This document shows positions 24,147-45,510 of a stretch of 64,000 bases of DNA, piece by piece. Position numbers and translations under genes: made by a program. The stretch comes from Bactericera cockerelli (lineage: Eukaryota > Arthropoda > Insecta > Hemiptera > Triozidae): contig CM044965.1 of assembly GCA_024516035.1 (NCBI GenBank), forward strand, positions 4,354,978 through 4,418,977. Direction: 5' to 3'. The notes below the pieces were generated by a model. That model saw only the letters and a list, made by a program, of their open reading frames with translations. It had not been told where the DNA came from and did not search any database. Position 1 is the stretch's first letter; every line of letters begins with the position of its first letter.

Positions 24147-24156
24147 GGTATTTATA
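24147..24156 (-). promoter_or_regulatory. Possible TATA box for the 23725-24111 gene
   Basis: The minus strand reads tataaatacc about 40 nt upstream of the ATG at 24111. A similar TATA-to-ATG spacing is seen for the PLA2-like gene (37487-37495). Confidence 0.4.
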
Positions 24157-24296
24157 GATGAACCTCTCAGTATTATAACCGCTACGTGAGATTGAGAATA
24201 TTTGAGAACAAGCAAATCAGTTCCATTTCTTCTCTTGTGGTGTTCGTATCGTGTTTTAATACGTGCATTAAAAAAAAAAAAAAAAAATATATAATA

Positions 24297-24638: not shown

Positions 24639-24670
24639 ATAGTTTTCAAATCGGAAACAAACAGTTAGTT

Positions 24671-26892: not shown

Positions 26893-27391
26893 AAAATGAA
26901 AACAAGTAGATGTAAGAATAAAATGCATGATTTTTCTCTTATATATTTTAAATTGTAATAAAATACATAGTGAAATACTTAATAAAATCAAAATACTTTA
27001 TTGTTCTTATTTAAAAAAATCAATTTAGGATACTTTAAAACTGTACTATACAAAAAAAAAAAAAAAAAAATGAAATAGTGGATATAAATTATCTTGGAGT
27101 AAAGAAATAATTACTTAAAACTATCAATGTGAACAACTTAGGGTAAGCATAATTTCACTTAGCTAGCATTGTGAAAAATAAATTAAAAAAAAAAAACATT
27201 GTGTACTATAAAAATATAATTAAAAAAATATGAAAATCAAATCTTGGAATATACATATTAGTGCAAACATATTTAACAATAGTAACTTTTAAAATATTAT
27301 TTCAAAGTAAGTGGGTTCTGTACAAAATACCAACTCTAAGTTTATAATCCGTGAACTTTTCGTGAAAAATCATTTTTTTTTTTTTTATCTT
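26893..27391. other. Convergent intergenic region of the Polinton
   Basis: AT-rich, with poly-A runs at 27052 and 27190. It separates the 3' end of the rightward integrase cluster from the 3' end of the leftward block. AATAAA motifs on the plus strand fit poly-A sites for the integrase transcript. No ORF of note. Confidence 0.7.
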
Positions 27392-28090
27392 TTACTCTAC
27401 GGTATCATATCCACTGTCAGTACTAAGAGAATTCTTAAAGTATGGGTTCTGTACAATATGTGGAGGCAAAAGATAAGATATACTATTTAGAAAATCAATA
27501 TCAAAAGCATAAAGAAGAAAATTTACAGGTAAAAAGTATAGGTCTCTGGGTTTCAATGAGAAAAAATCATTGGTTTCATTAAAGATGCCAATCGCTTCGT
27601 TGGTTAAGATTAAACTACTTTTCATTAGCTCACACAACCATTGTTTCATAACAATTACATTTAAACTTGAAACCGGAGAAATAGAATTTTGTGGACACAA
27701 TTTCAATTTTAAAGACTTAAAGTTAGGACAGTTTAAATTTTCAATATTGTAACATGTTTTAATAGGTAAAATAGAATTTAAAAACTTTTCCTTTTCTAAT
27801 CCTTTTACAATTATTTCGCTTGCTTTAGAGAGACACGATCGAATGATTTGCACTGCTTGATCGTACTCAACAAAGCCATCATCCCAATCCAAGTGATGAT
27901 AATTTAATGTAACGATAGCAGCTTCTCGTCGACGGAGTAAATTTAATTTTTGAAAATCATAGGGTGGTTTGAATACAAAATGTTGCACAAAGTTATCGTC
28001 AAAAAGTTTCGAGAATGAGAAACTTTTTAAAATTATTTGTTTTTCATTGTCGCGAAAAAATTGAATATCTGCTACAAAAGTATTTTCCAT
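27392..28090 (-). CDS. Conserved-looking Polinton-associated protein, 232 aa
   Basis: ATG at 28090. The N-terminus (VADIQFFRDNEKQIILKSF) followed by FKPPYDF, NYHHLDWDDG and a VKGLEKEKFL stretch resembles a protein type that I recall from insect Polintons and related elements. The alternation of strand-like segments with Asp residues (AD..., DWDDG) could suggest an RNase H-like nuclease fold, but I cannot confirm active-site residues. It is the last gene of the leftward block, 117 bp downstream of PolB. No membrane segment. The C-terminal tail is Ser/Asp-rich (STDSGYD). Function unassigned. Confidence 0.75.
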   Translation of the reverse strand: MENTFVADIQFFRDNEKQIILKSFSFSKLFDDNFVQHFVFKPPYDFQKLNLLRRREAAIVTLNYHHLDWDDGFVEYDQAVQIIRSCLSKASEIIVKGLEKEKFLNSILPIKTCYNIENLNCPNFKSLKLKLCPQNSISPVSSLNVIVMKQWLCELMKSSLILTNEAIGIFNETNDFFSLKPRDLYFLPVNFLLYAFDIDFLNSISYLLPPHIVQNPYFKNSLSTDSGYDTVE

Positions 28091-28207
28091 TTTAAGATAA
28101 CAGTTAACACTTGTTTCAAGAGACAGATAAACAAGTACTGACCATAAGGACTACATGCTAGTTGAATTTATACTTTTTTTTATAAACACAATCAAAAAAT
28201 CGAAAAC

Positions 28208-31200
28208 CTATTCCAAATCCATTTCTGAAGACTCATTTTTTAACTTGTAGTGACCGAATGGCAGGGTGTTGATTTTATCGGTCATGAGAACTCGTTTGTC
28301 ATCAAAGTTGTTCAGAACAAGTTTGTTTTGTTTCACAGTCGTCAAACAATGATTTTTAGAGACGATGTTGTGAAAAGATTTGTAAAGTTCAATATTTTCA
28401 CGCATACATCTTTCAAAATCTTCAAACTTGATCTGTCGTTCTGTAACATGTTTCTTAACACCCTTAGCCTTCTTTACTATTTTACCCTCATGCTCTTGAT
28501 ATGAATAAAGTTTACTCGCAATGCCCACAAATTTTTTCAAAATTTTACCATCCAACTCATCTTTGAACTTTCCAAGTACCTTTTTATTTTGAAGAGAGAA
28601 TAATTCGTGATTCTTCGGGTATGCACTTGTATCCAAGTGTTCCAAAAGGTTCGAAAAGTCTCGGTATAAGTCAGTGGTAAAAATTTGATAAAAAAATGAA
28701 TCTGTGTCCATATAGAGTAACCTAACATTTTCAGGACCAAACTTTGGTTGCACAATATCATAGTGAAATTGATACATCAAAGTTTTACTGAGGTCGAGAA
28801 CACAAACGCCTGCAAAAATGGCTTTGTTGAATTGAATTTTAGTTTTCTTCATAGTAAAGAGCACGAGATTTTCTTTGAATATTTTGAAGTCTTCGAAAAA
28901 TGGACTAGAAATACGTTTTCTAGCTAATTTCCAATTTGTTTCTAACTGTACATTAACCCTTTTACGCACACCTTCAATGAGCTTACCATACAAACTGTTA
29001 TTGACTTGTTTAAAGAAAGCCTTTGCAAAATCATTGGTTGCATTTTTCCTGTGCTCAGTATTAAGATTAATGTACGGAGCTAGATAATTGCTTTGGATGA
29101 ATTTTATTCCTCTATGAATTTTTACAAGTCTGAGTCCATGTTCAAGAGCTTGTTTTAGCGTTAGACAATGTACAATATATTTATGTTTGTTTTCCAATGT
29201 GGTCATAAGTTTTTGAGCGTTAGACAATGGAGATTTCTTTCTCTCACAGAGGAAGGGTAAATTCGAATGTAAATCGTGTAATTCCTTGGGATATTCCACG
29301 TCTACCTCGAAAAAATATCCAACATCATCTTGTGGAGTCAGATCTAAAACAGAAATACTGTTGATTTCTTCTTCGCTCAACCACTTGAAATCTTTCAAAG
29401 GAACTCTCTGAACCATGCTGTAACCGTAAAGATTATTAGCATCTAGATAAGTAAGATAGGAGGATTTTTCAGATGAAATAAAATCGCTTCCCATGTGTTT
29501 ATTATTTGCCTCTGCGTACTTTTGAATACATTGGCAAATACCTCCCCTAACTGCTTGCTCAAAAAAGAGGTACATGTCATATTCTAACAAAAGTTCTATT
29601 TCAACTTTTGTTTTCTTAAGCATAGCATCCAGGGTAAGACCCGGCAAAGAGTAGTACCATACAGGATCTAAGCTGTATATACTTAGGGAGAGGTTTCGGA
29701 AGGATTCGAAAATATCTGCCAACAATAGAACGTCAGTTTTCAGATAAATTTCCGAATATTCTTTCAAGTTTTGACACTTGAAATGTGTCCACACTTTTTG
29801 AGCGTGAACATAATCTTCCTGAGTAACTGAACTATTTGTTAAAGAGGAATAAAATTCATCAAGAGGTGGCAGATTAGTATCGAACAATTTACTATAACTA
29901 TCAAGGTATTCGTAACAAAAAATTCCTTTTCTAGTCAGTAATTCAAAATCAATATCGGACTGAATATGTTTCCTAGTATGATAAAATTTTTCTTTTGGCA
30001 ATGTTTTGCTCAATTTATCAAGGCTGCTTGACAAAAACCTGAATGAATCTATAAAACGAACACTCAGGTTGTCGGTAACCTTTTTTGAAAAGGAAACATA
30101 TTTTTCTGTTGAATTTGGAATTATTTCTATTTTTTTATCATCATAATTCAAACCTTTAATAATCAAATGACTGTCGTAGCCTGAAAAATTATGTGCTACA
30201 ACAGGAACAAATTTTTCTTTTTTAAATTTTAAATTGCATCTATTGCAAAGTACCCTTCGAAGGCTTCCATCACCATAATGATAATGATCCCTCACTTTTT
30301 TTAGAATGTTTGAAAAAGGTAATTTACAATGCTCACACTCTTTAGTTTCATGAAAACGTTTCCAATCATCGGGTGAAAGGTCGAGTGGAACTTGTTTCTT
30401 ATAAAATTCATCTATTTTTTTCACGTCATCAATTAACATTTTAAAAAATATCTCAACAACATCTTCATTCTCATTTTTAGCCGTATATGTAATCAACTTG
30501 TTTGTGTTGGGGCCAACCACATAGTAAGAAAAAGAAAAAGGAACATGTTGTTGAGTGGTCAAAGTGTACGAGTCAAGTGCTGATGGTTCACAAGAGCTGA
30601 CTTTTTTCAATATGGATTCGAAATCAGTGAAAATTACAAAAGGAATTTTTTGTTCAAATTGAAAATGCTCAAACTTTAAAATATTTTTACCTGGTTCCGG
30701 CATAATGGCAACACAAGGATTTTGTTTACCGCATAGTTCTTTATGTTTGAACAACCTTGTCTCATCTTCAAATGCAGTAAAACACATTTTGCAGAAAAAC
30801 CGGCTAATGTATTTTTTTTTGCTTTTATAATAAAATCTTGTTATGAATCTATTGAAATTTTTAATGAGAGAATAATGGTATAATCCTTTATCGTTACTTG
30901 TTAAAAGTAAATCAATATGAAATGGCTTTTCTTCTTTACAAACTTTAAGAATATAAACACTCTTATTCTTTTCCTCTTCTACCGCGCCAAGTACATTGAT
31001 GGATATGTTAGAATTATTCTTCTCAAAACAAGTTACTTGTTTTAAACACGTGTTCTCATGTATATCGTTAAAATTAAAAGTTTGAACATTTTCATTAGCA
31101 AACTCAATACATTTTTTAAAACTACCAAGTCCATGCTCAAAGGTATGTAAATATTTACTCTTCCTTAGAAATGATGGGACACTATAGAGGGTGAAAGTTA

Positions 31201-32260
31201 ACTTTTCCGGGGTCTCTCTATCACAATGGTGCTCGTGAAAATGTTTTTCAACGATAAACACAGACAGACAGATTTTACAAACATTGAATTTTATAGTAGA
31301 CTTTTGCAATGATGCTGGGAGTCTATGACGCATTAATTCATTAAAATTATTTATATATACAAAGTGTGAAACGTTACCATTTCTAAGCAAAAGTAAATCA
31401 TTCGAGCTCTGCACGTTATCAATTCGGGAAATGCGGAACGGTTGGATCAGGTTGTTTCTTTCCACGATGTAAACATTTACTGCTACACCCGGATTGTTAC
31501 TTTCGAAAATGTCTAGCTCGTCAATTTTAACTGGCCATGACAATCCCGACCAATTGTATTTGCTTTCGAGATCACTATAGTTTTTCTTAAAATTGCGTTT
31601 TTTCCAATCGGAAATAAACTTTACCAACATTGAATATTTGAAGCAATAGTTGTCATTGATTTTGACATTAAATACAGTTAGTCTTTTTTTCTCAAGAAAA
31701 TCCGGAGTCTTAATAAAAGTACCACACCGAATTGGTTGATATTTTAGAAAGGAGAGTTGAACTCCTCCGATAGACTTCATTGTCCAACCGCTTCCTTTTA
31801 ATTCAAAATCAAGCATCTCCGATTGTAAACTCTCTACAGCTTCCTGCCACACATTAAGAAAGTCAACACTTTCACACACTGTAAAATTTTTGGTTTTAAA
31901 AGATGCTAGTTTGATGTCTTCTTCTTTGGTGAGTTGTTTGAAAAAAACAAATAATCGAGCTGACAGTTTGAAACTCTGATAGTTTATCAAAATTTCTTCC
32001 TTCAACTCCATCACTTTATCCTTTACATACTCCTGAAGAAATGTTTCTATGTTTTTATAATTTTTATTTTTTATGAAATACGTTCTTATTTTATTTTTAA
32101 AGGCAGACTCTAGTAATGTGACATTATCAGGATAGCTGTTGAAGAGATTTCTTTGATGTTGTGCAGAGTTAAAATGTTCATTTTTTTGAGCATCACTTGT
32201 AAAACTATAATGTTCATTGCATATATTACATAGTGCTATTCTTACTCTGGGGATATCCAT
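28208..32260 (-). CDS. Protein-primed DNA polymerase B (Polinton pPolB)
   Basis: 1350 codons, ATG at 32260. It replicates the linear element by protein priming. The 3'-5' exonuclease motifs are present: Exo I TDFES (about residue 546), Exo II NFSGYD (about 690) and Exo III YLKTDVLLLAD (about 843). Polymerase motifs: A DANNLYG (about 940), B NNSLYGK (about 1086), C YMDTDS (about 1184). The long N-terminus carries cysteine/histidine pairs like zinc fingers (CNICNEHYSF near residue 11; CKICLSVF with HEHHC near 330; CKMCFTAF near 490). A CEHCKLPF...CNRC group sits between Exo I and Exo II, resembling the endonuclease VII-like zinc site seen in this family. All catalytic residues are retained and no stop or frameshift is seen. 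Poly-Lys tracts are absent and length is within the usual 1000-1400 range. Confidence 0.96.
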   Translation of the reverse strand: MDIPRVRIALCNICNEHYSFTSDAQKNEHFNSAQHQRNLFNSYPDNVTLLESAFKNKIRTYFIKNKNYKNIETFLQEYVKDKVMELKEEILINYQSFKLSARLFVFFKQLTKEEDIKLASFKTKNFTVCESVDFLNVWQEAVESLQSEMLDFELKGSGWTMKSIGGVQLSFLKYQPIRCGTFIKTPDFLEKKRLTVFNVKINDNYCFKYSMLVKFISDWKKRNFKKNYSDLESKYNWSGLSWPVKIDELDIFESNNPGVAVNVYIVERNNLIQPFRISRIDNVQSSNDLLLLRNGNVSHFVYINNFNELMRHRLPASLQKSTIKFNVCKICLSVFIVEKHFHEHHCDRETPEKLTFTLYSVPSFLRKSKYLHTFEHGLGSFKKCIEFANENVQTFNFNDIHENTCLKQVTCFEKNNSNISINVLGAVEEEKNKSVYILKVCKEEKPFHIDLLLTSNDKGLYHYSLIKNFNRFITRFYYKSKKKYISRFFCKMCFTAFEDETRLFKHKELCGKQNPCVAIMPEPGKNILKFEHFQFEQKIPFVIFTDFESILKKVSSCEPSALDSYTLTTQQHVPFSFSYYVVGPNTNKLITYTAKNENEDVVEIFFKMLIDDVKKIDEFYKKQVPLDLSPDDWKRFHETKECEHCKLPFSNILKKVRDHYHYGDGSLRRVLCNRCNLKFKKEKFVPVVAHNFSGYDSHLIIKGLNYDDKKIEIIPNSTEKYVSFSKKVTDNLSVRFIDSFRFLSSSLDKLSKTLPKEKFYHTRKHIQSDIDFELLTRKGIFCYEYLDSYSKLFDTNLPPLDEFYSSLTNSSVTQEDYVHAQKVWTHFKCQNLKEYSEIYLKTDVLLLADIFESFRNLSLSIYSLDPVWYYSLPGLTLDAMLKKTKVEIELLLEYDMYLFFEQAVRGGICQCIQKYAEANNKHMGSDFISSEKSSYLTYLDANNLYGYSMVQRVPLKDFKWLSEEEINSISVLDLTPQDDVGYFFEVDVEYPKELHDLHSNLPFLCERKKSPLSNAQKLMTTLENKHKYIVHCLTLKQALEHGLRLVKIHRGIKFIQSNYLAPYINLNTEHRKNATNDFAKAFFKQVNNSLYGKLIEGVRKRVNVQLETNWKLARKRISSPFFEDFKIFKENLVLFTMKKTKIQFNKAIFAGVCVLDLSKTLMYQFHYDIVQPKFGPENVRLLYMDTDSFFYQIFTTDLYRDFSNLLEHLDTSAYPKNHELFSLQNKKVLGKFKDELDGKILKKFVGIASKLYSYQEHEGKIVKKAKGVKKHVTERQIKFEDFERCMRENIELYKSFHNIVSKNHCLTTVKQNKLVLNNFDDKRVLMTDKINTLPFGHYKLKNESSEMDLE

Positions 32261-32368
32261 GATGCCTTCACAAGAAAAAATAAATAAAATAAAAATTAAT
32301 CAACTTATAATTGTATATTCACTTATTCTATAAAAATAATTGCCATGATTATGGATGGAACATAAGGA

Positions 32369-32836
32369 CTAATCGAACAATTCCCACACAGACTTTTCAG
32401 GATACCGATAGTAACGACATCGGTCTACACGGTGACTGGGTATTTCATCTTTCCATAATTTAATAAATAAATTGAAATTTGTGAAAGTATCTTTTATGGT
32501 AGAGAGAAATTTTATTCTTATATTTTCATGGTAACAGTCCTTATGCTCATGTTCCACATACTTATAATTATTACATCTACAATTACGATATAAGTTATTT
32601 GAATACCCTTGTAATCTAATTAAATATAGTAAATCTTCAAAACGATGAAGAAAACAATGAGTAGTGAACGGTGGTAGACCTAGTTTAACTACTTGAGGTT
32701 TAATGTAACAAAAGAAGAAATAGGCAGGTAAACGATCAGTATAAGAGTTTTCGAAAAAATTTACAATTTCATCAACATGTCTGTTGGAAAAATCATATAC
32801 TGCTTGTCTGAATGCCAAGTCTTCTAATGTTTGCAT
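32369..32836 (-). CDS. Polinton protein of unknown function, 155 aa
   Basis: I start at the ATG at 32836; the open frame extends three codons further only through a TTG. It has a Cys/His-rich middle (NCRCNNY ... HEHKDCYHEN) that may bind zinc, aromatic-rich helices, and ends WELFD. It lies between the 166-aa gene (14 nt upstream) and PolB (108 bp downstream), in the same direction, so one transcript is plausible. No family recognised. Confidence 0.65.
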   Translation of the reverse strand: MQTLEDLAFRQAVYDFSNRHVDEIVNFFENSYTDRLPAYFFFCYIKPQVVKLGLPPFTTHCFLHRFEDLLYLIRLQGYSNNLYRNCRCNNYKYVEHEHKDCYHENIRIKFLSTIKDTFTNFNLFIKLWKDEIPSHRVDRCRYYRYPEKSVWELFD

Positions 32837-32850
32837 AGTTTTCAAATAAC

Positions 32851-33351
32851 TTAGATCGCAACTATTTCTTCTGACATACGTGTATACATATCCAACAAGA
32901 TATCAGAACATAAATCATCAAATTTTTTGGATATAACAAAATCATCACAAATATAATTAAAAAATGAGATATCCTCTATCATAATGGCTATAATGTGACA
33001 CACAAAAGAATAAATGTCAACATGTGCACATTCGCCATATTCTGGCAGACAGTATTGGTTATTTTCTAGAGTAAGGTGCATCACAGTACCCTCAAAGTCC
33101 AATATATTACTATAAAATTTTTGAAAAAGATCTTCTTGGATATGTTTTGGTAAATTTTCCTGAGCAATTGTTGCTAGTATTTTATTTTTATATCCCCTAT
33201 CAAATAAAATTATCTCTGCTATACCTTGAAAACGTGGTTCTAAATGTTTTTCCTGTATCTCTTCTGCAATTAAATAAAAAAGGCCTGAATATTCTTGAAA
33301 AAGTAAATGGCAATTATTAATTAAAGAAATAGAGTATAAGGAAGGAGACAT
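32851..33351 (-). CDS. Polinton protein of unknown function, 166 aa
   Basis: ATG at 33351, TAA at 32851. It is acidic and helix-rich, with a hydrophobic stretch about residues 110-130 (YSFVCHIIAIMIEDISFFNY) that could be a buried helix or a weak membrane segment. The C-terminus is DLCSDILLDMYTRMSEEIVAI. Only 14 nt separate it from the next gene. I do not recognise it. Its order next to PolB may be useful for matching to unknown proteins of other insect Polintons. Confidence 0.65.
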   Translation of the reverse strand: MSPSLYSISLINNCHLLFQEYSGLFYLIAEEIQEKHLEPRFQGIAEIILFDRGYKNKILATIAQENLPKHIQEDLFQKFYSNILDFEGTVMHLTLENNQYCLPEYGECAHVDIYSFVCHIIAIMIEDISFFNYICDDFVISKKFDDLCSDILLDMYTRMSEEIVAI

Positions 33352-33417
33352 TACATACCAATTTTAAATAATAAAATTTATAGCAGGTTTCACTTCTTCA
33401 GAAGGTCGCTCTTAGCT

Positions 33418-33419
33418 CT

Positions 33420-33450
<31 letters not shown>
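33418..33450. repeat. (CGT)n microsatellite inside Polinton
   Basis: About ten cgt units in the 3' flank of the 94-aa gene, in otherwise AT-rich DNA. Confidence 0.9.
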
Positions 33451-33451
<1 letters not shown>

Positions 33452-33483
33452 TTGTTCTCCAATGAGCTGAATTGCTACTGAGT

Positions 33484-33768
33484 TCAGGACATCTTCCTTC
33501 TCTTCTCCAGAAGACTATTTAATTCTTCTTCTTCTTCTTCTTTTAGCTTTGGCCACAAAATACGTTCAATTTCAAAATCACCTTCCAATTCTTCTAATTT
33601 TTCTTGGACTTTTTTTGGTCCAATTCTATATTTTAATTTAATGATAATTATATTATTTTCTTTATAGTCAATATCTTTACCATCTATGTTAAAGTTTTTC
33701 TTTATTAAAAGTTCAAAAATTCTTCTGTCCTCCTTCTTTTTAATTCTTAGTGCAACAACTGAAGACAT
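33484..33768 (-). CDS. Small charged Polinton protein, 94 aa
   Basis: ATG at 33768. It begins MSSVVALRIKKKEDRRIFEL and ends with a strongly acidic, helix-prone tail (EEEEEELNSLLEKRRK). The middle (KENNIIIIKLKYRIG) is strand-like. The size, charge and position first in the replication-side leftward group suggest a small DNA- or protein-binding factor, for example a terminal-protein or regulatory candidate, but I have no motif to support a function. A TATTTAAAG-like element lies about 360 bp upstream on the minus strand (34122-34133). Confidence 0.55.
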   Translation of the reverse strand: MSSVVALRIKKKEDRRIFELLIKKNFNIDGKDIDYKENNIIIIKLKYRIGPKKVQEKLEELEGDFEIERILWPKLKEEEEEELNSLLEKRRKMS

Positions 33769-34239
33769 AATAATTATGACAATAAAATTGGTTTTTTTAA
33801 GTTCACAATATCTTGAGTTAAATAATAAAAATTAATAGTAAATTATAAATTAAACTGTTCACGAATAAAGGAAACACCTTTTTTTATTTTATTAGGTAAA
33901 TAATCAAAAAACTGTTCACAAATAAATTACACAAAATGCAAAAAAAAGTAAATAGACAACAACAACAAAAAAAATTCACGATTAAATCTGACAAATTTTT
34001 CACGTAAAGTTCACGGGTTATAAACTTAGAGTTGGTATTATAACAGAACAACACACTTATTCGCTTCAAGTTATAGTATACTGTTCTAGTGCTGGAATGA
34101 GTATGACTATGTCCCGCTCTCGCTTTAAATACAACTACTTATCTCCTTTTAGCCCAGGTAACCGTTTCTCATTCTCAACTGTCGTTCTTTCTAATTAAAA
34201 GAAAATAATTAGAAGTTTGAGCGAGTATTCTTTTATCGT
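33769..34239. other. Polinton intergenic region with possible promoter
   Basis: AT-rich, between the capsid gene's stop and the 94-aa gene. The minus strand has gtatttaaagcgagagcggg at about 34118-34133, a TATA-like box followed by a GC-richer stretch. This could start a transcript for the replication genes. Confidence 0.4.
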
Positions 34240-35466
34240 CTACATTATTTTTTGTAATGTATTTGTCAACGGGTACAGTCTTACAAGGGCATCATGTATT
34301 ATTAGAGCATACAAAGTTGTTTTGTCTGGAACATTTTCAGCTAGTTCGTATTCGATACGAATGTCTACTGTAGAACTATGTTTCCATAGCTCGGACTGTT
34401 TTGAGCAATCAATCACTATAATAGGAGCTTTCGCTAAATATTCTTTATAGCTAAGGTAAGGTTCACCAACTTTTCCATAATAACTCTCTTGGAAATCACA
34501 ATACATAAGGTAAAGTGGAATATATTTTTTTTGTTCAAAGTCAATATTTAAAGACTCATAGGGGAAACAAACCGAGTTGAGATATATTTTTATATTCTTG
34601 AGTTTCACATGATCAAACTGAGATGGATTCTTTGTCAAACTGTTGTCACGGTCTGTTTGGAAGCCCAAAATCAAATAACGCGGAGACTCAGTTTGGGTAC
34701 TTGTCTTAACTGTCCAGTTTATCTCCTTACTTGAAGGTAAATTTGGATAGTAATTCAAATTCCATTTTCTAAAACTCATATCAATCGGAACATTTCTTTT
34801 ATATTGTGAGAGCAACTCTAAACGAATAGGATCACTGACTTGAACATGTGGTACCTTCCATATTACTTTTGTCAGTTGAACTTTTGCATCAGTTACAGCC
34901 GTGGTACCCGTAGACAAAAGAGCATCCTTGGAACTCTTGGATCTCATTAAAATCAAATCAAGACGTTGATTGAGGAGTATTTTATCATAATTCTCAGCGA
35001 AACCCAACAGATATTTCAGTTTTAAATATCCACAAAATGTATAACTTGATGTAATCTCAATTGCTTGACCTGTTGTCTCATATTTTTTCAGTTCGTCACT
35101 CGAGTAAGATGGAAGAGATTTAAGTAAACTTGTAACGCCAACGTTTTTAATGCAATCGATTTCAACACTATTCATTTCCAAGCGAATTTCATCAAACAGG
35201 AAGCATAGTCCATTGTTTACGAACTGAATGCTTTTATTGGCATCCAGATTGCTTCCATCCTCTTTCACAATTTTCCCTTCAATGTAGATTCCCGATTCAC
35301 TTACAAGTAGGTATGAACTTTCCTGGTTGATACTGATGATAATGTTGTCCGTAGAATCCAAACTGATACTTGTGTACGGTCCGTATGAATGTGTTTCGTA
35401 ACGAATTATATTTTCGTCATAGGTTACACGATTGTTTACATTCAAAATACTGTCTTCTTTGTTCAT
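34240..35466 (-). CDS. Polinton major capsid protein (double jelly-roll type)
   Basis: 408 codons; the start ATG at 35466 overlaps the stop of the preceding small ORF as ATGA. The sequence is rich in beta-strand-like segments and Ser/Thr/Asn loops, with no membrane helix. The C-terminal part (IIVIDCSKQSE, then STVDIRIEYELAENVP and YALIIHDALVRLYPLTN) is the recognisable signature of insect Polinton capsid proteins, which are predicted double jelly-roll proteins forming hexagonal capsomers. The middle RKWNLNYYPNLPSSKEINW and PRYLILGFQT are also typical. Length is slightly below the usual 450-600. It is the last of a tightly packed morphogenesis group (penton, small basic, capsid). Intact. Homology is by recall; a structure comparison was not run. 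Confidence 0.9.
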   Translation of the reverse strand: MNKEDSILNVNNRVTYDENIIRYETHSYGPYTSISLDSTDNIIISINQESSYLLVSESGIYIEGKIVKEDGSNLDANKSIQFVNNGLCFLFDEIRLEMNSVEIDCIKNVGVTSLLKSLPSYSSDELKKYETTGQAIEITSSYTFCGYLKLKYLLGFAENYDKILLNQRLDLILMRSKSSKDALLSTGTTAVTDAKVQLTKVIWKVPHVQVSDPIRLELLSQYKRNVPIDMSFRKWNLNYYPNLPSSKEINWTVKTSTQTESPRYLILGFQTDRDNSLTKNPSQFDHVKLKNIKIYLNSVCFPYESLNIDFEQKKYIPLYLMYCDFQESYYGKVGEPYLSYKEYLAKAPIIVIDCSKQSELWKHSSTVDIRIEYELAENVPDKTTLYALIIHDALVRLYPLTNTLQKIM

Positions 35467-35645
35467 TTTTGGACCACCTGATAGCCTAAACTTTGCAATA
35501 TTTTTACACTTTTTATAGTTAGTTTCTTTAATTTTCTTTTTTTCTTTTTCTTAATACTTTTCACTTGTATGTCACTTGTTGGAATGATCTTAAGGTAGGC
35601 GAGTGCTCTCTTTTTATTGCTTTTCATCCGTTTCATCACAATCAT
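35463..35645 (-). CDS. Small basic protein between penton and capsid genes, 60 aa
   Basis: The ATG at 35645 overlaps the penton stop (ATGA, 35642-35645) and its TGA overlaps the capsid start (ATGA, 35463-35466). About one third of residues are Lys or Arg, including KSIKKKKKRKLKKLTIKS, so it is a strong nucleic-acid-binding or nuclear/nucleolar-targeting candidate. Both overlaps having the same 4-nt form argues that it is a true gene translated by reinitiation, and not chance. It has no other recognisable motif. By analogy, small basic core proteins condense DNA in adenovirus virions; that is only a parallel. It could also be a translational relay that controls capsid dosage. Confidence 0.6.
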   Translation of the reverse strand: MIVMKRMKSNKKRALAYLKIIPTSDIQVKSIKKKKKRKLKKLTIKSVKILQSLGYQVVQK

Positions 35646-36325
35646 GTTTTCAAATGTAATTCCAAAGATATTTCTTCACCTCGAAAATTTATTAAATTAT
35701 GTCTTTCGTCAACAAGCTTCACAATCAATCTGTCGATCTCGTCCGTATTGAGTGGTAAATATATAACATTGTTAGGAATTTCTGTGATTCGAAAACCAGG
35801 TGGTACATTCAGGAAACATTTGTACAAACAATTACTGGGCACACCATCTTGGTAGGATCCACTAACTATGTTTATATCGACTTGTATAGAATTTATTTTG
35901 GAAATTTCCAAATTTTTTGTTGAAGTCAACATAGTATAGGCAGCGTAATTTTCTTTTGGTAGACCAAGCATATCAGCAAGTGAACGCTCCTCCTTGAAAT
36001 CAACATTATACTTGCACCAAAAAGTACATTTCAAAGTGTTTACATTAGGTTTAATGGATATTGCGTTTTCGCCCAACTTGGATTTTAAATAGTTTTCAAT
36101 ATCAAGTAATTCATACGTTCCTTCGTCTATTTCAATTTCAGTCCACTCTTTATTTTCATCCTGATATTTAAAAATATTGTTTGACTGATCAATGTTTGGG
36201 ATACTATTGTAAGTTTGAAACTGTGTCAAACCAATCACAGCATCTGGGGAAACTTTTAAAGGAGGAAATATTGAACACACAATTTCAGATTTTCTAGAAG
36301 TTATATGAAAAATTCTGCTCGACAT
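35642..36325 (-). CDS. Polinton penton-like minor capsid protein (single jelly-roll type)
   Basis: 227 codons, ATG at 36325, stop TGA overlapping the next ATG. The N-terminus (SSRIFHITSRKSEIVCSIFPP), VIGLTQFQTYNSIPNI, NTLKCTFWCKY and the C-terminal FRGEEISLELHLKT follow the pattern of the short capsid protein encoded next to the major capsid gene in animal Polintons. It is predicted to form the pentameric vertices. It is beta-rich with no membrane segment. Position between protease and capsid genes agrees with that role. It lies 23 nt downstream of the protease stop and is co-directional. Assignment is by recalled family pattern and synteny. Confidence 0.85.
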   Translation of the reverse strand: MSSRIFHITSRKSEIVCSIFPPLKVSPDAVIGLTQFQTYNSIPNIDQSNNIFKYQDENKEWTEIEIDEGTYELLDIENYLKSKLGENAISIKPNVNTLKCTFWCKYNVDFKEERSLADMLGLPKENYAAYTMLTSTKNLEISKINSIQVDINIVSGSYQDGVPSNCLYKCFLNVPPGFRITEIPNNVIYLPLNTDEIDRLIVKLVDERHNLINFRGEEISLELHLKT

Positions 36326-36348
36326 TTTTTATTTTTATTTTTTTCTTG

Positions 36349-36728
36349 TTATTTGTTAAACAATTCAATACTTTTTTGTACAATATACTTCAAACACAAG
36401 TGACCACAATTAACTGATCTGTATTGTTGATCTCGTTCATAATTATATAAAATTTTACAACCTGCAAGATAATCTCTTATTTCTACAGGTGGACGCAAGT
36501 TGCCAAAACTATCATAATAAAATGCAGAATTTTTTTTCTTCAATACAGCTGTCCAATGGCTCCCAGGTCCACTTGAAATATCGAGATTAACAATAATCAC
36601 TTCATTTCTTCTTGGTTTAGACGGTAAAACATCCAAACTGTATACGCCTCGAAAATGTGGAACATTGATTTCACGAACCTTTTTTAAAATATCAAAGTTT
36701 GTCAATGCTCTTCGAGGCAAATCATTTA
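36349..36728 (-). CDS. Adenain-like cysteine protease, in -1 frame without an ATG
   Basis: The frame has no methionine codon anywhere; the first near-cognate codon is TTG at 36718-36720. The sequence PHFRGVYSLDVLP, IVNLDISSGPGSHWTAV, YYDSFG and NCGHLCLKY is the Polinton/adenovirus-type protease. Counting from that TTG, the catalytic set is H55, D70, Q98/Q99 and C105. It would cleave capsid precursors during maturation. The frame is open back to about 36789, overlapping the end of the PLA2-like gene in -1 register. That gene's slippery heptamer (36735-36729) leads directly into this frame, so I infer it is made as a frameshifted extension. Coordinates begin at the first post-shift base block. 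Length (~126 residues) is normal for the domain. Confidence 0.88.
36646..36718 (-). promoter_or_regulatory. Possible frameshift-stimulating stem
   Basis: On the transcript, gcctcgaa (36718-36711), 10 nt after the slippery site, pairs perfectly with ttcgaggc (36653-36646) across 57 nt. The 8-bp GC-rich stem could be part of a pseudoknot. It is coding sequence of the protease. Confidence 0.4.
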
Positions 36729-37454
36729 GTTTTTTGACAAAACGTTGAAATAGTTTGAGTAGGGCTTTATGTACAATCCTTGTCCAGTCTTAATGGGAGT
36801 GACAGCACCCGAAGCACTAGCAGCTTTGAAATCTGCAATTGCTTTTGCGATACCACTTACACCACCAACAATTGATCCGAGAGCACTTAAACCAGCAAGT
36901 AACGGAATAGCAGCCGGCAAGAATCCACCCGATATTGTCTTGGGTACTCTAAGTGTTCTCGGTATTTTCTTGTTTATTTTCTTTCCGCGCATAGCTTTAC
37001 GTGCAGCCATCAGAGCATGTTTACTAATCAATTTGAGATTATCACTTTCGCCAGCAGACTTCATTCCTTCTGTAGCAGCTTTAGATAGTTTTCGAAAAGT
37101 AATTGTTGTCTTTTTTTTGCGACGAAGACCTGCACCCATTTTTCTTTTCACTTTCATAGCGTTCGTGACTAACCAGGCAGCAGCTCTTTCGGGTAACTTT
37201 GTATCTTTAGCTTTGAATCTCTGCCAGGCTTTGTTTTCCAACTCCCAATCGGCTTGTTTGCGATCAGCGTTTTTGATGGCGTACTTGAGATCGTGTTCTT
37301 TGCAGGCTGAATCCAATGGATTGATACCCTTCTGATCAATTCTCTGATCTAATTTTGTTCCTGGTCCACAGAATCTATAGGTCGGAATGTGTACTTCGAA
37401 AGGTAATTTATCAATCAAAGTATTTAGGAGACCTTTTCCACGTCTGCTTAACAT
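36726..37454 (-). CDS. PLA2-like minor virion protein of Polinton, 242 aa
   Basis: I use the ATG at 37454; the open frame extends six codons upstream only through a GTG. Residues 28-33 (FCGPGT) form a calcium loop and 50-58 (ACKEHDLKY) carry the His-Asp dyad of a phospholipase A2 domain, as in parvovirus VP1-unique regions. A basic middle follows (GLRRKKKTTITFRK, ARKAMRGKK), then a Gly/Ala-rich hydrophobic stretch at about 176-206 (GGFLPAAIPLLAGLSALGSI), reminiscent of membrane-active minor capsid proteins such as adenovirus pVI. The end has GQGLYIKPYS, a motif typical of insect Polinton minor capsid proteins. It probably helps the particle cross membranes. It is first in the leftward morphogenesis block and shares a 44-bp divergent region with the ATPase. 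It ends on the slippery heptamer leading to the protease. Confidence 0.85.
   Translation of the reverse strand: MLSRRGKGLLNTLIDKLPFEVHIPTYRFCGPGTKLDQRIDQKGINPLDSACKEHDLKYAIKNADRKQADWELENKAWQRFKAKDTKLPERAAAWLVTNAMKVKRKMGAGLRRKKKTTITFRKLSKAATEGMKSAGESDNLKLISKHALMAARKAMRGKKINKKIPRTLRVPKTISGGFLPAAIPLLAGLSALGSIVGGVSGIAKAIADFKAASASGAVTPIKTGQGLYIKPYSNYFNVLSKN
36729..36735 (-). promoter_or_regulatory. -1 ribosomal frameshift slippery heptamer
   Basis: The minus strand reads tcA AAA AAC TAA in the frame of the PLA2-like gene. A_AAA_AAC is a canonical X_XXY_YYZ site, directly followed by the zero-frame stop. A -1 slip continues into the protease frame with no intervening stop. Confidence 0.7.
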
Positions 37455-37498
37455 TAATAATAAAGTGATCACTATGAAAACATCGCTTTATATAGAAA
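37455..37498. promoter_or_regulatory. 44-bp divergent promoter region
   Basis: This is the only space between the ATGs of the PLA2-like gene (minus) and the ATPase (plus). It holds a TATA-like tatataaag on the minus strand (37487-37495) and a 10-bp palindrome agtgatcact (37464-37473). 5' UTRs must be very short, or transcripts start inside the opposite gene. Confidence 0.5.
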
Positions 37499-38191
37499 AT
37501 GAAAACAATTAATTTTAAACAAAAATTGAATGTTGAAAACTTTGATTTTGTCAGCAACGTGAGTGTACATTCAAAATTTAAGAGGCATGGAAACTTTTTT
37601 CCAAACAGTGTACGAGCTTTAATTGTTGGTCCAAGCGGATCGGGCAAAACAAACCTCCTGCTGGCTCTCTTGTTACATCCCAACGGATTACGTTTTGAAA
37701 ATGTTTACATTTACTCAAAATCAATTCACCAACCCAAATACAAATTTCTGGAGAATGTGCTGAAAGGAATTAAAGAAGTTGAATACAAAGTGTTTACAAA
37801 CAATGAAGAAGTGAATCCACCATGCGAAACAAAGACAAATAGTGTTTTTGTAATGGATGATATTGCGTTCGAGAAACAAAATAATATCAAACAATATTTT
37901 TCTCAAGGGCGACATTTTCTCATCGATACTATTCTTTTGGCACAAACCTACTCAGCTATTGGTAAACAATTGATTCGGGACAATGCAAACTTCCTTTGTA
38001 TCTTTCAACAAGATCCACTCAACTTGAAACATATCTATTCCGATCATGTGTCTGATATATCTTTTGAAAAGTTCAAACAAATGTGTCAGTATTGTTGGAA
38101 AAAAAAACATGGATTTCTTGTGTTGGACAAAGAATCAGTTCAATCTGGGCGCTTTCGTTGTGGTTTAGATACATATTTTGTGGATATATAA
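37499..38191 (+). CDS. A32-like genome-packaging ATPase (FtsK/HerA type)
   Basis: 230 codons, ATG at 37499. Walker A GPSGSGKT at about residues 44-51 and Walker B VFVMDD at about 116-121 are intact. A downstream TILLAQTYSAIGKQLIRDNANF stretch matches the sensor/arginine region of Polinton and NCLDV packaging ATPases. It would pump element DNA into preformed capsids. Size is typical (200-260). It reads rightward with the 389-aa gene, whose start lies 32 nt beyond its stop. Intact. Confidence 0.93.
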   Translation: MKTINFKQKLNVENFDFVSNVSVHSKFKRHGNFFPNSVRALIVGPSGSGKTNLLLALLLHPNGLRFENVYIYSKSIHQPKYKFLENVLKGIKEVEYKVFTNNEEVNPPCETKTNSVFVMDDIAFEKQNNIKQYFSQGRHFLIDTILLAQTYSAIGKQLIRDNANFLCIFQQDPLNLKHIYSDHVSDISFEKFKQMCQYCWKKKHGFLVLDKESVQSGRFRCGLDTYFVDI

Positions 38192-38223
38192 GACATTACT
38201 TGCCAGGTTTAGCTTATTTAGAC

Positions 38224-39393
38224 ATGAGTCTTTCAAAAGAACTTAGTGATGCTAAAATTGTCGCGAAAAAAATTAGTGACGCACAGAAAGATATACGAGC
38301 AAAAACATTATCCCTTAAAATCGGACAGGACGAGCAAACAAGCAGTATCCGCAATTTATTAAAACCAGTAGCAGAACCGTTGACGAAAATTGTTCAACTG
38401 AAAGAAAAAAAAGTTAATTTCCTGAAAAAGTTGAGAGAAAAACAACCCGTTTCCATTAAAAGAGAACCAACAGCTTCTCTGCGACTTTTACCTTCACTTT
38501 TGAAAAAATTTGAGAGTCCGTCTGGAAGATCTGCTGGAACACCTGAAACAGAATATGCAAGTCCACTAGAAAACTGGAATTTTGAATCAACTGTTCAATC
38601 GCCAGAATCAATTTATCCAAATACTTCGTATCAGAATAGTCCTATTCAATATGATAGAAATTTATTGCAGAAACAATACAACCAGACAGTCTTTCATAGC
38701 CCGAGTGACTCTTCTCCTTTAAGAGAAAGTTCTCAACATAAACGTCACAGTATTTCAATGCCCAATTCACCACAACCTTCAACTGAAGCTTTGCAAAAAA
38801 TAAAATTCTTAGAACGTAAGATACCAATGTCACCACCACCACCTATTGCAACGAGTGAATGGAATGAAGAAAATATACAAACTATGAAACCTGCGAGCGT
38901 GAATAAAACCTCTTTAATTGATCATTTTCTAAAACAACAACAAACCAATGCAATTGAAATTGACAAAGTAACAGGAGTAAAATCAAAGAATGGAAAATAT
39001 TACGTGGGGAAAAAAGAGATTCACTTTTCTAAAACACCCACCGAACAATTTCATATTGATGGTAAAGTTTATCCAGTAACGCGTGGTCTTATGGAACTTT
39101 TGTTTCTCAAACAACCCAATCATTCAAATCTTAGCACATTAGATGAAAGAAACTATAAATATATCATAGAGAGTACAAGTCTGGACCCTATAACAACAAA
39201 AGTAATCCAATATGGAAAAGGAATGATGTTGGAGAGCAATCGAGACAAGGAGTTTGTTTATTTTGACAACCCAAATGAACTAGTCGAAAGGCTTTTATTA
39301 CTCAAGAGATCACAATCTGCAGGCAATCTTGCTCATAATAATGAAATATTATCCATCGAAAGTGAACTCAAAGAATTGAATTTGATTTATTAG
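38224..39393 (+). CDS. Polinton protein of unknown function, 389 aa
   Basis: I choose the ATG at 38224 (MSLSKELSDAK) over an upstream in-frame ATG at 38083 that lies inside the ATPase gene. The N-terminal ~80 residues are Lys/Ala/Ser-rich helices. Residues about 90-220 are Pro/Ser/Thr-rich and probably disordered (SPSGRSAGTPETEYASP, SPIQYDRN, MPNSPQPSTE). The C-terminal part (SKNGKYYVGKKEIHF, then HIDGKVYPVTRGLMELLFL and a NYKYIIESTS stretch) recalls a conserved but unnamed protein of insect Polintons, possibly the one called PY. AATAAA motifs follow at about 39401-39412. No catalytic motif. A scaffold or structural role is only a guess. Confidence 0.8.
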   Translation: MSLSKELSDAKIVAKKISDAQKDIRAKTLSLKIGQDEQTSSIRNLLKPVAEPLTKIVQLKEKKVNFLKKLREKQPVSIKREPTASLRLLPSLLKKFESPSGRSAGTPETEYASPLENWNFESTVQSPESIYPNTSYQNSPIQYDRNLLQKQYNQTVFHSPSDSSPLRESSQHKRHSISMPNSPQPSTEALQKIKFLERKIPMSPPPPIATSEWNEENIQTMKPASVNKTSLIDHFLKQQQTNAIEIDKVTGVKSKNGKYYVGKKEIHFSKTPTEQFHIDGKVYPVTRGLMELLFLKQPNHSNLSTLDERNYKYIIESTSLDPITTKVIQYGKGMMLESNRDKEFVYFDNPNELVERLLLLKRSQSAGNLAHNNEILSIESELKELNLIY

Positions 39394-39456
39394 AAGAATA
39401 ATAAATAAATAAAAATCAAGAACATTATTCAAATAAATAAATTATTTTGAAAATAT

Positions 39457-40765
39457 AAATGTTTGTAATATGACAACACACCTTGTATATTTGACCATAC
39501 ACGTCGAGCCTATACCAAGTTTTGCTTATTAAAAAAAAAAATATGTTTAACGGTCTAGCAGCCTGCTTCAAATAATTAGTTTTTAAATCTAAAATTGGTT
39601 TCATGACTTTGCCTCAATATTCAATAGTTTTTAATTACTCAAACTTTTTAAATTGAAACATTAAATCTCCAACTGAAATTGGTCTAGCCTGCTAATTAGT
39701 TTTTAAATCTAAAATTGGTTTCGTGACTTTGCCTCAATATTCAATAGTTTTTAATTACTCAAACTGAAATAATTAGTTTTTTAAATTGAAACATTAAATC
39801 TTCAACTGAAATTGGTCTACTTAGTTTTAAAATCTAAAATTGGTTTCGTGACTTTTCAAGAGTTTTTAATTACTATATGAGCCACTGCATTGCAACGATA
39901 ACAAATTGCCTACATGCACCTTGGTTAGAATTGAACACACAATGTCTCTGTTCGTACGAATTATGCACGCCCGGTATCTTAATTGTTATGCAATGCGCAA
40001 TCATGTGCTACATACCCGTTACCCGTGCTCGTAAGGTTAATACTTGTCCCCTGAAAATTATATTTTGTAATAACAATTAAATTACCAGGTATTAGAATCT
40101 ACCTCTCCTAACGGTACTCTGTTAGAACAAACAAATTTCTTCTTTGTACTTTTAAAATTAATTATAGCACAAAAAATAATAATAAAAACAACGAACACAC
40201 AATGCTTCCGTTATCTAAAATAATAAGTTTTTAAATTGAAACATTAAATCTCCAACTGGAATTGGTCTAGCCCAAATTAGTTTTTTAAATCTAAAATTGG
40301 TTTCGTGACTTTGCCTCGATTTCAAGAGTTTTTAATTACTCAACTATATGAGCGAGGCAACACACATTGCAACGAACTGATAACAAATTACCTACATGCA
40401 CCTTGGTTAGAATTGAACACACAATGTCTCTGTACGTACGAATCCAGGGCTCACTCGAAATTTTTCATCTATTATATTGTCAAAAAAAATGTATTTATTG
40501 ATAAAATATATAAACGACACCCTAACAACTACAAAAAAAAAATAACCATATCGTAGGAACCGCAAAATATAGAAATTAAAAAATGGACCACCTAAATTTG
40601 ATCTAGGGGGGGCTAGGGGGGGAGTAGAAAGCTAAACGTTATATCAAAAGATTTTGGAGCTCAATACGCATCTTTTGACTACCCACAATCGAACCTACGA
40701 CCTTTCATTGCGACGCTAGAGCAAAATCTTGCTTATCCTGGTAGACCCTTCCTTTATACACTACT
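39457..40765 (-). repeat. Polinton right terminal inverted repeat
   Basis: About 1.31 kb, the reverse complement of 22465-23724. It has an extra 64 bp (40099-40162) absent from the left arm and a shorter poly-G stretch (40607-40621). Otherwise only scattered single-base differences were seen by eye. Confidence 0.93.
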
Positions 40766-40771
40766 GTTAAG
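40766..40771 (+). repeat. Polinton target-site duplication, right
   Basis: gttaag, identical to 22459-22464. Confidence 0.92.
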
Positions 40772-42065: not shown

Positions 42066-42150
42066 AGTGGGTTCTTCACACCTCGGCCGAGGTGTTTGAT
42101 AAGTATGGCTACCTGGGTTCAAATCCCGACCGGAGCAGAAAATTCTGACG
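42066..42150 (+). repeat. SINE family E, 5' half
   Basis: The head (ggtgtttgataag, ggttcaaatcccgaccgga) ends in gcagaaaattctgacgg, where the foldback element is inserted. The other half resumes at 45401. Confidence 0.7.
42142..42150 (+). repeat. Target duplication of foldback element, left
   Basis: attctgacg (attctgacgg if 10 bp), repeated at 45401-45409. Confidence 0.7.
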
Positions 42151-45100
42151 GGACATCCTAATTTAACGGTTACAAAAAAAAGCTCCGGTCACCGGCCTGG
42201 TAATGATATCTTTAACGGTCAAACTGCTATCATGTAGAGCTAGTTAATGTCCATCTTTTCATCGAAAAATATTTTCGATTTTCCTTTTCTAAGACCGGAA
42301 TTTTCCGGGAAAACCCGTTATTTTCAACTAAATATGTCCGGTCATGTAAGTGGTAGAGATATTTTTAACGGTCAAACTGCTATCATGTAGAGCTTCTTAA
42401 TGTCCATCTTTTCATAGAAAAACATTTTCAATTTTCCTTTTCTAAGACCGGAATTTTCCGGGAAAACCCGTTATTTTCAACTAAATATGTCCGGTCATGG
42501 AAGTGGTTGAGAAATTTTTAACGGTCAAACTGCTATCATGTAGAGCTACCTAATGTCCAACTTTTCATCGAAAAACATTTTCGATTTTCCTTTTCTAAGA
42601 CCGGAATTTTCCGGGAAAACCCGTTATTTTCAACTAAATGTGTCCGGTCATGGAAGTAGTAGAGAAATTTTTAACGGTCAAACTGCTATCATGTTGAGCT
42701 ACCTAATGTCCATCTTTTCATCGAAAATCATTTTCGATTTTCCTTTTCTAAGACCGGAATTTTCCGGGAAAACCCGTTATTTTCAACTAAATGTGTCCGG
42801 TCATGGAAGTAGTAGAGAAATTTTTAACGGTCATCATGCTAATATGTAGAGCTACCTAATGTCCATCTTTTCATCGAAAAATATTTTCGATTTTCCTTTT
42901 CTAAGGCAGGAATTTTCCGGGAAAACCCGTTATTTTCAACTAAATGTGTCCGGTCATGGAAGTAGTATAGACATTTTTAACGGTCAAACTGCTATCATGT
43001 ATTGTCCATCTTTTCATACTTAATGTCCATCTTTTCATCGAAAAACATTTTCGATTTTCCTTTTCTAAGACAGGAATTTTCCGGGAAAACCCGTTATTTT
43101 CAACTAAATGCGTCCGGTCATGGAAGTGGTAGAGAAATTTTTAACGGTCAAACTGCTATCATGTAGAGCTACCTAATGTCCAACTTTTCATCGAAAAACA
43201 TTTTCGATTTTCCTTTTCTAAGACCAGAATTTTCCGGGAAAACCCGTTATTTTCAACTAAATGCGTCCGGTCATGGAAGTGGTAGAGAAATTTTTAACGG
43301 TCAAACTGCTATCATGAAAGAGCTACCTAATGTCCAACTTTTCATCGAAAAACATTTTCGATTTTCCTTTTCTAAGACCAGAATTTTCCGGGAAAACCCG
43401 TTATTTTCAACTAAATGCGTCCGGTCATGGAAGTGGTAGAGAAATTTTTAACGGTCATCATGCTAATATGTAGAGCTACCTAATGTCCATCTTTTCATCG
43501 AAAAACATTTTCGATTTTCCTTTTCTAAGACCGGAATTTTCCGGGAAAACCCGTTATTTTCAACTAAATGTGTCGGGTCATGGAAGTAGTAGAGAAATTT
43601 TTAACGGTCAAACTGCTATTATGTAGAGCTACCTAATGTCCATCTTTTCATCGAAAAACATTTTCGATTTTCCTTTTCTAAGACCGGAATTTTCCGGGAA
43701 AACCCGTTATTTTCAACCATTTATGAGTTATAACATTTTTTGTTGGTTTTTGACGTTCGCCGACCTCTCTTCACGTAATCACATGAATCGCTTTATTCTA
43801 TCGGCTTTATTCTATCGAGCTGAAACTTTCAGGACATATTCCTGAGTTTTAGCAGATGATTCTTTTTCAGAATCGCCATCTTCGAAAAGGAAAATCGAAA
43901 ATGTTTTTCAATGAAAAGATGGACATTAAGAAGCTCTACATGATAGCAGTTTGACCGTTAAAAATATCTCTACCACTTCCATGACCGGACATATTTAGTT
44001 GAAAATAACGGGTTTTCCCGGAAAATTCCGGTCTTAGAAAAGGAAAATCGAAAATGTTTTTCGATGAAAAGTTGGACATTAGGTAGCTCTACATGATAGC
44101 AGTTTGACCGTTAAAAATTTCTCTACCACTTCCATGACCGGACATATTTAGTTGAAAATAACGGGTTTTCCCGGAAAATTCCGGTCTTAGAAAAGGAAAA
44201 CCGAAAATGATTTTCGATGAAAAGTTGGACATTAGGTAGCTCTACATGATAGCAGTTTGACCGTTAAAAATATCTCTACCACTTCCATGACCGGACATAT
44301 TTAGTTGAAAATAACGGGTTTTCCCGGAAAATTCCGGTCTTAGAAATGGAAAATCGAAAATGTTTTTCGATGAAAAGTTGGACATTAGGTAGCTCTACAT
44401 GATAGCAGTTTGACCGTTAAAAATTTCTCTACCACTTCCATGACCGGACATATTTAGTTGAAAATAACGGGTTTTCCCGGAAAATTCCGGTCTTAGAAAA
44501 GGAAAATCGAAAATGTTTTTCGATGAAAAGTTGGACATTAGGTAGCTCTACATGATAGCAGTTTGACCGTTAAAAATTTCTCAACCACTTCCATGACCGG
44601 ACATATTTAGTTGAAAATAACGGGTTTTCCCGGAAAATTCCGGTCTTAGAAAAGGAAAATTGAAAATGTTTTTCTATGAAAAGATGGACATTAAGAAGCT
44701 CTACATGATAGCAGTTTGACCGTTAAAAATATCTCTACCACTTACATGACCGGACATATTTAGTTGAAAATAACGGGTTTTCCCGGAAAATTCCGGTCTT
44801 AGAAAAGGAAAATCGAAAATGTTTTTTGATGAAAAGATGGACATTAAGAAGCTCTACATGATAGCAGTTTGACCGTTAAAAATTTCTCTACCACTTCCAT
44901 GACCGGACATATTTAGTTGAAAATAACGGGTTTTCCCGGAAAATTCCGGTCTTAGAAAAGGAAAATCGAAAATGTTTTTCGATGAAAAGTTGGACATTAG
45001 GTAGCTCTACATGATAGCAGTTTGACCGTTAAAAATTTCTCAACCACTTCCATGACCGGACATATTTAGTTGAAAATAACGGGTTTTCCCGGAAAATTCC

Positions 45101-45400
45101 GGTCTTAGAAAAGGAAAATTGAAAATGTTTTTCTATGAAAAGATGGACATTAAGAAGCTCTACATGATAGCAGTTTGACCGTTAAAAATATCTCTACCAC
45201 TTACATGACCGGACATATTTAGTTGAAAATAACGGGTTTTCCCGGAAAATTCCGGTCTTAGAAAAGGAAAATCGAAAATGTTTTTTGATGAAAAGATGGA
45301 CATTAAGAAGCTCTACATGATAGCAGTTTGACCGTTAAAGATATCTTTACCAGGCCGGTGACCGGAGCTTTTTTTTGTAACCGTTAAATTAGACAGTGCC
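42151..45400. mobile_element. Foldback-type element with arms of ~153-bp tandem repeats
   Basis: The left arm (about 42151-43718) is about ten head-to-tail copies of a ~153-bp unit. The start of ggtcaaactg falls at 42218, 42370, 42523, 42676, 42829, 42982, 43146, 43299, 43453 and 43606. The right arm (about 43873-45400) is the same array inverted. The outermost parts (taatttaacggttac, gctccggtcaccggcctgg) are also mirrored. A ~155-bp non-repeated centre (43719-43873) has no ORF. Insertion in a SINE with a 9-10-bp duplication fits a Mutator/FB-like mechanism. Short ORFs (98, 87, 69 aa) merely translate the unit. Non-autonomous. Confidence 0.85.
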
Positions 45401-45510
45401 ATTCTGACGGAGTTTTCTGTTTCCGGAATGGCACGGGTGTAAAGGTAAAGTACCCTGAAGTAATGCAAAAGTGGTTCCGGGGCACAATTACCTTCTTTTT
45501 TACATTCTTT
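45401..45510 (+). repeat. SINE family E, 3' half
   Basis: attctgacggagttttctg, cggaatggcacgggtgtaaa, ccctgaagtaatgcaaaag and cggggcacaattacc complete the SINE interrupted at 42150. Confidence 0.75.

Follow-up and report, generated by a model that had tools for sequence, protein, structure and literature searches.

The DNA analysed here, referred to as the window, is a 64,000-nucleotide stretch that carries an intact-looking Polinton of 18.3 kb at positions 22465-40765. The element has the termini AGTAGTG...CACTACT and is flanked by a 6-bp target site duplication, GTTAAG (left copy at 22459-22464, right copy at 40766-40771). Its inverted repeats are about 1.3 kb long, and two aligned pieces of them are 97.7 and 98.9% identical. 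The hallmarks of Polintons/Mavericks found are an RVE integrase, a packaging ATPase, a double-jelly-roll (DJR) capsid protein, an adenain-like protease, inverted repeats and the 6-bp duplication. Since its genes are uninterrupted and its ends near-identical, the insertion is probably young and decay of its protease is unlikely. The features considered are the following:

22459-22464, no strand: target site duplication GTTAAG, left copy (right copy at 40766-40771)
22465-40765, no strand: Polinton, delimited by the target duplication and the inverted-repeat ends
25954-26892, plus strand: RVE integrase (PF00665, E 2.2e-11) with a chromodomain-like end (PF00385, E 0.0038, below the cut-off)
28208-32260, minus strand: large ORF of 1350 aa, putative protein-primed PolB, which by its length and by recognition we take it to be
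34240-35466, minus strand: double-jelly-roll major capsid protein (PF21738, E 2.6e-89)
35642-36325, minus strand: putative penton/minor capsid gene, next after the protease, proposed from its position and a by-eye likeness to the end of protein P0243; no Pfam match was found for its product
36349-36789, minus strand: adenain-like protease frame, -1 relative to the PLA2 gene, with no ATG (frame, profile and fold matches)
36646-36718, minus strand: candidate stimulatory hairpin of 8 bp + 9 bp with a 6-nt bulge (folding)
36719-36728, minus strand: 10-nt spacer, including the PLA2 stop TAA at 36728-36726
36729-36735, minus strand: A_AAA_AAC slippery heptamer
36726-37454, minus strand: PLA2-like/pX-like gene, 242 aa (PF08398, a weak PF05829 match and a capsid profile match)
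37499-38191, plus strand: A32-like packaging ATPase, divergent from the PLA2 gene (PF04665, E 4.5e-11)

The terminal repeats (22465-23726 and 39452-40765) hold internal repeat units about 120 bp apart.

The PLA2 gene is read on the minus strand from an ATG at 37454 and ends TCA AAA AAC TAA, with the heptamer A_AAA_AAC in its zero frame, as the original prediction had read it. The protease frame lies at -1 to the PLA2 gene and is open from 36789 to its stop at 36349 with no Met in 146 codons, which agrees with the earlier description of a Met-free frame open back to about 36789. The junction combines two of the elements by which -1 frameshift sites are recognized, an X_XXY_YYZ heptamer in the zero frame and an open ORF at -1. 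Among 15 ORFs (4634 codons), 51 in-frame sites of the X_XXY_YYZ type were counted, and A_AAA_AAC was found in frame only at this junction; its expectation from codon usage is 0.0006 per site, or 0.012 per 20 codons, which is approximately the length of the overlap. The absence of Met is not rare in itself (P = 0.12 from the Met frequency of seven element proteins), and 26 of the 120 protease homologues compared (the best 120 of 151) have no Met after residue 1.

Both proteins were assigned from profile and structure comparisons. The PLA2 protein has a match to PF08398 (E 9.3e-10) and a weak one, below the cut-off, to Adeno_PX (PF05829, E 0.0023), and its profile matches capsid proteins in the PDB (E 7e-4), which we take to be parvovirus VP1. 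Two short strands are predicted in its tail just before the junction, at residues 239-242 and 246-250 in the numbering of the stop-to-stop translation. The protease profile matches the adenoviral proteinase 1avp (E 3.6e-5), and the best Foldseek match of its model (pLDDT 94.9) is the adenovirus proteinase 1nln, at a moderate TMq of 0.62, with other Ulp1-like proteases matching as well. Residues H78, D93, Q121 and C128, presumably the catalytic His, acid, Gln and Cys of an adenain-type protease, are conserved in the alignment. Judged from model and alignment, the protease looks intact and of the adenain type, and because fold and catalytic residues are kept while its frame holds no Met, it is an intact-looking enzyme without an AUG start of its own. 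The motif ISGG-F, which precedes the pX-like stretch of the window PLA2 protein, was compared with the adenain cleavage consensus and dropped as a defined cleavage site, as P4 is Lys in 94 of the 114 relatives with the motif.

One way to translate such a frame would be splicing, which could remove the PLA2 stop or supply the protease frame with an AUG from a leader. Adenoviruses splice, and a consensus donor, GTAAGT at 36860, is the only one found by pattern in 36760-37487. Nevertheless, among the nine AGs in 36840-36655 only those at 36817 and 36679 would bring the GTAAGT exon into the protease frame; the former then meets the upstream stop of that frame, and the latter, with its weak tract, would cost the protease LPRRALTNFDILKK. 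Splicing from this donor was rejected as a candidate, since no acceptor combination keeps the conserved protease N-terminus; nor does splicing predict the Lys-Asn (KN) signature described below, and we consider it very unlikely. Joining the donor to the AG at 36789 would close a 72-nt stretch with the PLA2 frame kept, a splice that would drop 24 residues.

The 8-bp stem that had been proposed 10 nt past the heptamer exists at that distance, with 36718-36711 pairing to 36653-36646, and it is extended across a 6-nt bulge by an inner helix of 9 bp (36710-36702 with 36668-36660). The 121-nt junction folds with a minimum free energy of -27.5 kcal/mol (z -2.17), a value as low being reached in 7 of 200 shuffles, and of the 4013 segments of 75 nt on the minus strand of 33400-37487, the most stable starts at 36718 (-23.9 kcal/mol), followed at -22.0 kcal/mol by the next distinct segment. 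The hairpin arms fall in codons for the conserved motifs LPRR and FRG, and the stem may be a by-product of these protein motifs. A spacer of 10 nt is also a little long for a frameshift stimulator. The stem is thus a good one but short of overwhelming, given a z of only -2.17, arms in conserved codons and a longish spacer.

Conservation was examined through related proteins, with reliance placed on PLA2 rather than on the protease. Homology searches gave 625 PLA2 and 151 protease homologues, of which the best 120 of each were used; the PLA2 set (n = 121) consists of the window protein and the best 120 of 625, the records being database clusters at 90% identity. The named PLA2 relatives are from insects (Cacopsylla, Exocentrus, Rhodnius, Diorhabda, Diabrotica and Leptopilina). 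Codons of the relatives were deduced from amino acids, so that AAA and AAG, or AAC and AAT, are indistinguishable. Lys-Asn followed by zero to two residues forms the C-terminus of 82 of the 121 PLA2 proteins (KN 33, KN+1 28, KN+2 21), and no KN was found at offsets 3-6 from the end in any of the 121. The residue before the terminal KN varies (S 35, P 15, Q 12, T 8, K 7, A 3, L 1 and N 1); nevertheless, only one of the 82, the N, has no codon ending in A, compared with 21.9% of tail residues (binomial P 4e-8; about 3e-4 on the assumption that the 44 clusters at 70% identity likewise include at most one such case). Where KN is internal, the preceding residue lacks an xxA codon in 47 of 226 cases (Fisher test against terminal KN, 4e-6). 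On a PLA2 tree built without the last 25 residues, the pre-KN residue changed at least 35 times among the 80 KN rows, once to a residue without an xxA codon, whereas each of the nine positions upstream showed 3-20 changes to such residues. Similarly, the codon after KN starts with T (stop, F, Y, C or W) with certainty in 73 of 82 proteins and possibly in 76. Within the last four residues, the conservative swaps RN, KD, KS and KH, which selection on the protein alone would permit, were not found, and KT, KQ and KK occurred 2, 2 and 15 times, respectively. The presence of KN required 10 changes on a tree of 116 rows (three Exocentrus models and two rows of at most 200 aa being omitted from the 121), compared with a shuffled mean of 30.9. 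Were KN kept for the protein alone, the codons beside it should be unconstrained; because the amino acids around KN vary while the bases persist, xxA AAR AAY T is read as conserved as a nucleotide signal. As deduced from protein sequences, then, the slippery signature in relatives is under nucleotide-level conservation, which lends support to the PLA2-protease fusion by -1 slippage put forward in the original prediction.

The same signature bears on transcriptional slippage, in which the polymerase rather than the ribosome would slip on the A-run. The run has six As, and longer K-runs occur in another clade; six As are, however, short for polymerase slippage, which moreover requires neither the A_AAA_AAC phase nor the T after it, and we regard this as the least probable of the explanations weighed. 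Constraint on the protease protein was also weighed. Read in the protease frame, the slippery string gives KK followed by Leu or Phe, and KKL precedes LPxRAL in 14 of the 21 protease rows that reach far enough, the window included (among the 74 rows that have at least 16 residues before FRG, pattern matching set aside 53 as too short or without the motif, although one of these, P0024, has KKL). The value of KKL as an independent proof of slippage is weakened by one subgroup that has it after an upstream Met (M[FY]...KKL), where, since KKL lies within the N-terminus, its conservation is possibly at the protein level. Such a constraint could, on its own, account for part of the xxA-K-N-T pattern. 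Even then the heptamer would have to be read in the -1 frame, and with no AUG in the window copy such reading needs a slip or another unusual start.

An unusual start of that kind could be non-AUG initiation at a near-cognate codon in the window copy or, in other lineages, termination-reinitiation at an ATG that overlaps the PLA2 stop. The LPRRAL motif of the window has a TTG codon at its start (36720) and another within it (36705), both with G at -3, and initiation at either is the alternative hardest to dismiss for the window copy alone. Among the 120 protease records, 73 start at least 16 residues before FRG, many of them at the junction, a place where the PLA2 stop and a protease ATG may share bases; many homologues begin there with MKLP or MLP, and the protease may be made by reinitiation in those lineages. 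The other 47 begin within the conserved N-terminus or past it. A lack of upstream ATGs would lead to this pattern, which contig ends or the choice of the gene caller can also produce. The window protease frame, however, offers no AUG, and initiation of this kind leaves the conserved A before KN and the T after it unexplained, so that we hold it to be unlikely.

The signature is not universal. The 39 PLA2 proteins without a terminal KN, which include two fused gene models and two of the 11 best-scoring relatives (P0129, ending SKI, and P0131, ending SKK), mostly have K-rich tails or end in KI or QD. In the K-rich clade without terminal KN (records P0168, P0156, P0043, P0010 and P0018), a KKKTS-like stretch was common to some PLA2 tails and protease N-termini, and the protease may be expressed in frame, by readthrough or by a slip on the A-run. 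The endings KI or QD characterize a second clade (P0163, P0202, P0235, P0241, P0174 and P0189, together with Rhodnius records), which may use yet another arrangement.

A search for in-frame PLA2-protease fusions of 213-679 aa returned only four proteins, all of them gene models of the beetle Exocentrus adspersus (P0153, P0186, P0243 and P0244); its sensitivity is indicated by the 118 of 121 protease rows that share at least two five-residue words with the query. A fifth fusion, the contig protein P0043, is below the length range of that search. From these fusions it would seem that the elements tolerate a fused protein and keep the two genes side by side, and also that frameshifting is not universal among relatives. 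They further bear on whether the two genes are truly one frame in the window, separated by an assembly error in the A-run, or whether the protease of this copy is simply unexpressed. In-frame fusions do exist in the Exocentrus models and in P0043, yet 82 of 121 separate records stop just after the same KN, the search within its length range found fusions in the models of a single beetle only, and the window Polinton has long uninterrupted genes and near-identical ends; either possibility is thus highly improbable. In two divergent lineages, models P0153 and P0244 continue without a break from the PLA2 tail into the protease by way of HPKKLPIKLP, a stretch that P0186 is without, as if the gene predictor had put an intron there. 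Pairing of PLA2 and protease records on the same contig by equal lengths of their longest contigs (3168, 4022, 8035 and 13802) was suggestive only and was left unused.

We put the probability that -1 ribosomal frameshifting at A_AAA_AAC yields a PLA2/pX-protease fusion at roughly 0.8. The anatomy of the junction, a protease frame without AUG and, through proteins, a conserved signature are its observed basis. The protease would be expressed mainly as the C-terminal part of the fusion: some ribosomes would slip back one base at the heptamer, with both tRNAs re-pairing on AAA AAA, and after Lys-Asn the slipped ribosome would bypass the adjacent TAA and go on with CTA, a Leu codon of the protease frame. 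Ribosomes that do not slip would terminate and give the PLA2 protein alone. The hairpin that begins 10 nt further on is a probable stimulator of the slip. The fusion would be of low abundance and its PLA2-like part presumably a minor capsid protein, as the original prediction had worded it.

Retroviruses, including MMTV, make their gag-pro fusion by -1 frameshifting at A_AAA_AAC. The junction resembles that system in the position of the heptamer near the end of a structural gene, in the protease at -1 and in the proposed status of the fusion as a minor product; it differs in that the Polinton is a dsDNA transposon or virus, its protease a cysteine (adenain) and not an aspartic protease, and the upstream protein PLA2/pX-like and not Gag. 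By analogy, then, the junction would work like retroviral gag-pro without being a member of it, as there is no homologous Gag or aspartic protease. The purpose of the fusion, on the same analogy, could be to load a small number of protease copies into the particle as it assembles, beside the core-protein substrate. In adenovirus, a peptide of pVI is the activating cofactor of adenain, and the PLA2 tail may act, at a guess, as an activating strand in cis for the protease. Adenovirus adenain with pVI/pX shares the protease fold, and the window partner protein has the weak pX-like stretch; unlike the window protease, adenovirus adenain has its own start codon and its cofactor peptide acts in trans after cleavage.

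A broader reading, to which we would give about even odds, is that of a clade-wide gag-pro-like system in insect-related Polintons/adintoviruses, in which a conserved slip at A_AAA_AAC would fuse a membrane-active core protein to the maturation protease, with delivery at a fixed low ratio, activation in cis by the attached tail and repeated shifts between frameshifting, stop-start overlap and in-frame fusion.

Slippage in this group of viruses has already been suggested. In the sections available of a 2024 preprint (PMC11071296), KnotInFrame is the basis for proposing that adintovirus Penton has a -1 slip close to its 3' end, with a similar relationship suggested for Hexon and Adenain, fused as "Hexain". 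That proposal likewise concerns the adintovirus/Polinton group and a slip joining a capsid protein to Adenain; its partner, however, is Hexon or Penton, and those sections mention neither a PLA2-like partner nor nucleotide-level conservation. Spodoptera (Sf) Mavericks carry a parvovirus-VP1-like PLA2 gene, CAP, and an adenain-like PRO (PMC5803895), and in this they resemble the window element as insect Mavericks with both genes; in the portions accessible, however, the two are handled as separate ORFs, with no frameshifting of them mentioned. The accessible portions of PMC4028283 and PMC3671162 describe the genes typical of Polintons and the occurrence of PLA2 in elements related to them, and a PLA2-protease frameshift falls outside the subject of what was available of PMC8363768, PMC12567637, PMC10675110, PMC10120064 and PMC9683012. 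Within the open-licence literature, neither a report of a PLA2-protease frameshift nor work on how Polintons dose and package their protease was found, and according to the excerpt available of PMC8097293 (2021), Maverick viral particles had not yet been observed at that time. A recoded protease fusion is thus of a known kind, in a virus group where slippage had already been floated, and the novelty seems to lie in the partner gene and in the site with its conservation.

Conservation of a recoding site would argue strongly that virion assembly is under selection, and such a site could help to correct records in which the protease begins at an internal Met. If the proposed frameshifting is true, the gag-pro solution would have been reached separately in a dsDNA lineage.

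More distant sequences were also scanned. Viral contigs yielded one distant PLA2 locus (IMG/VR, positions 2890-3336 of L001), which codes for a short protein like PLA2 (YCGPGTNL) on a contig with further ORFs, and tblastn of the PLA2 protein P0166 in plasmids and phages found nothing. Genome contigs yielded a single Polinton-like contig (L002, 1-6107) in a MAG labelled Balneolales, which is probably eukaryotic contamination; in this distant relative the protease starts at an ATG of its own, and inspection by eye showed no PLA2 gene beside or upstream of it. Outside the Polinton, 153-bp satellite arrays in both orientations occupy 42083-45402, beyond its right end, and a tRNA-Cys(GCA) gene is predicted in the host flank at 8680-8752.
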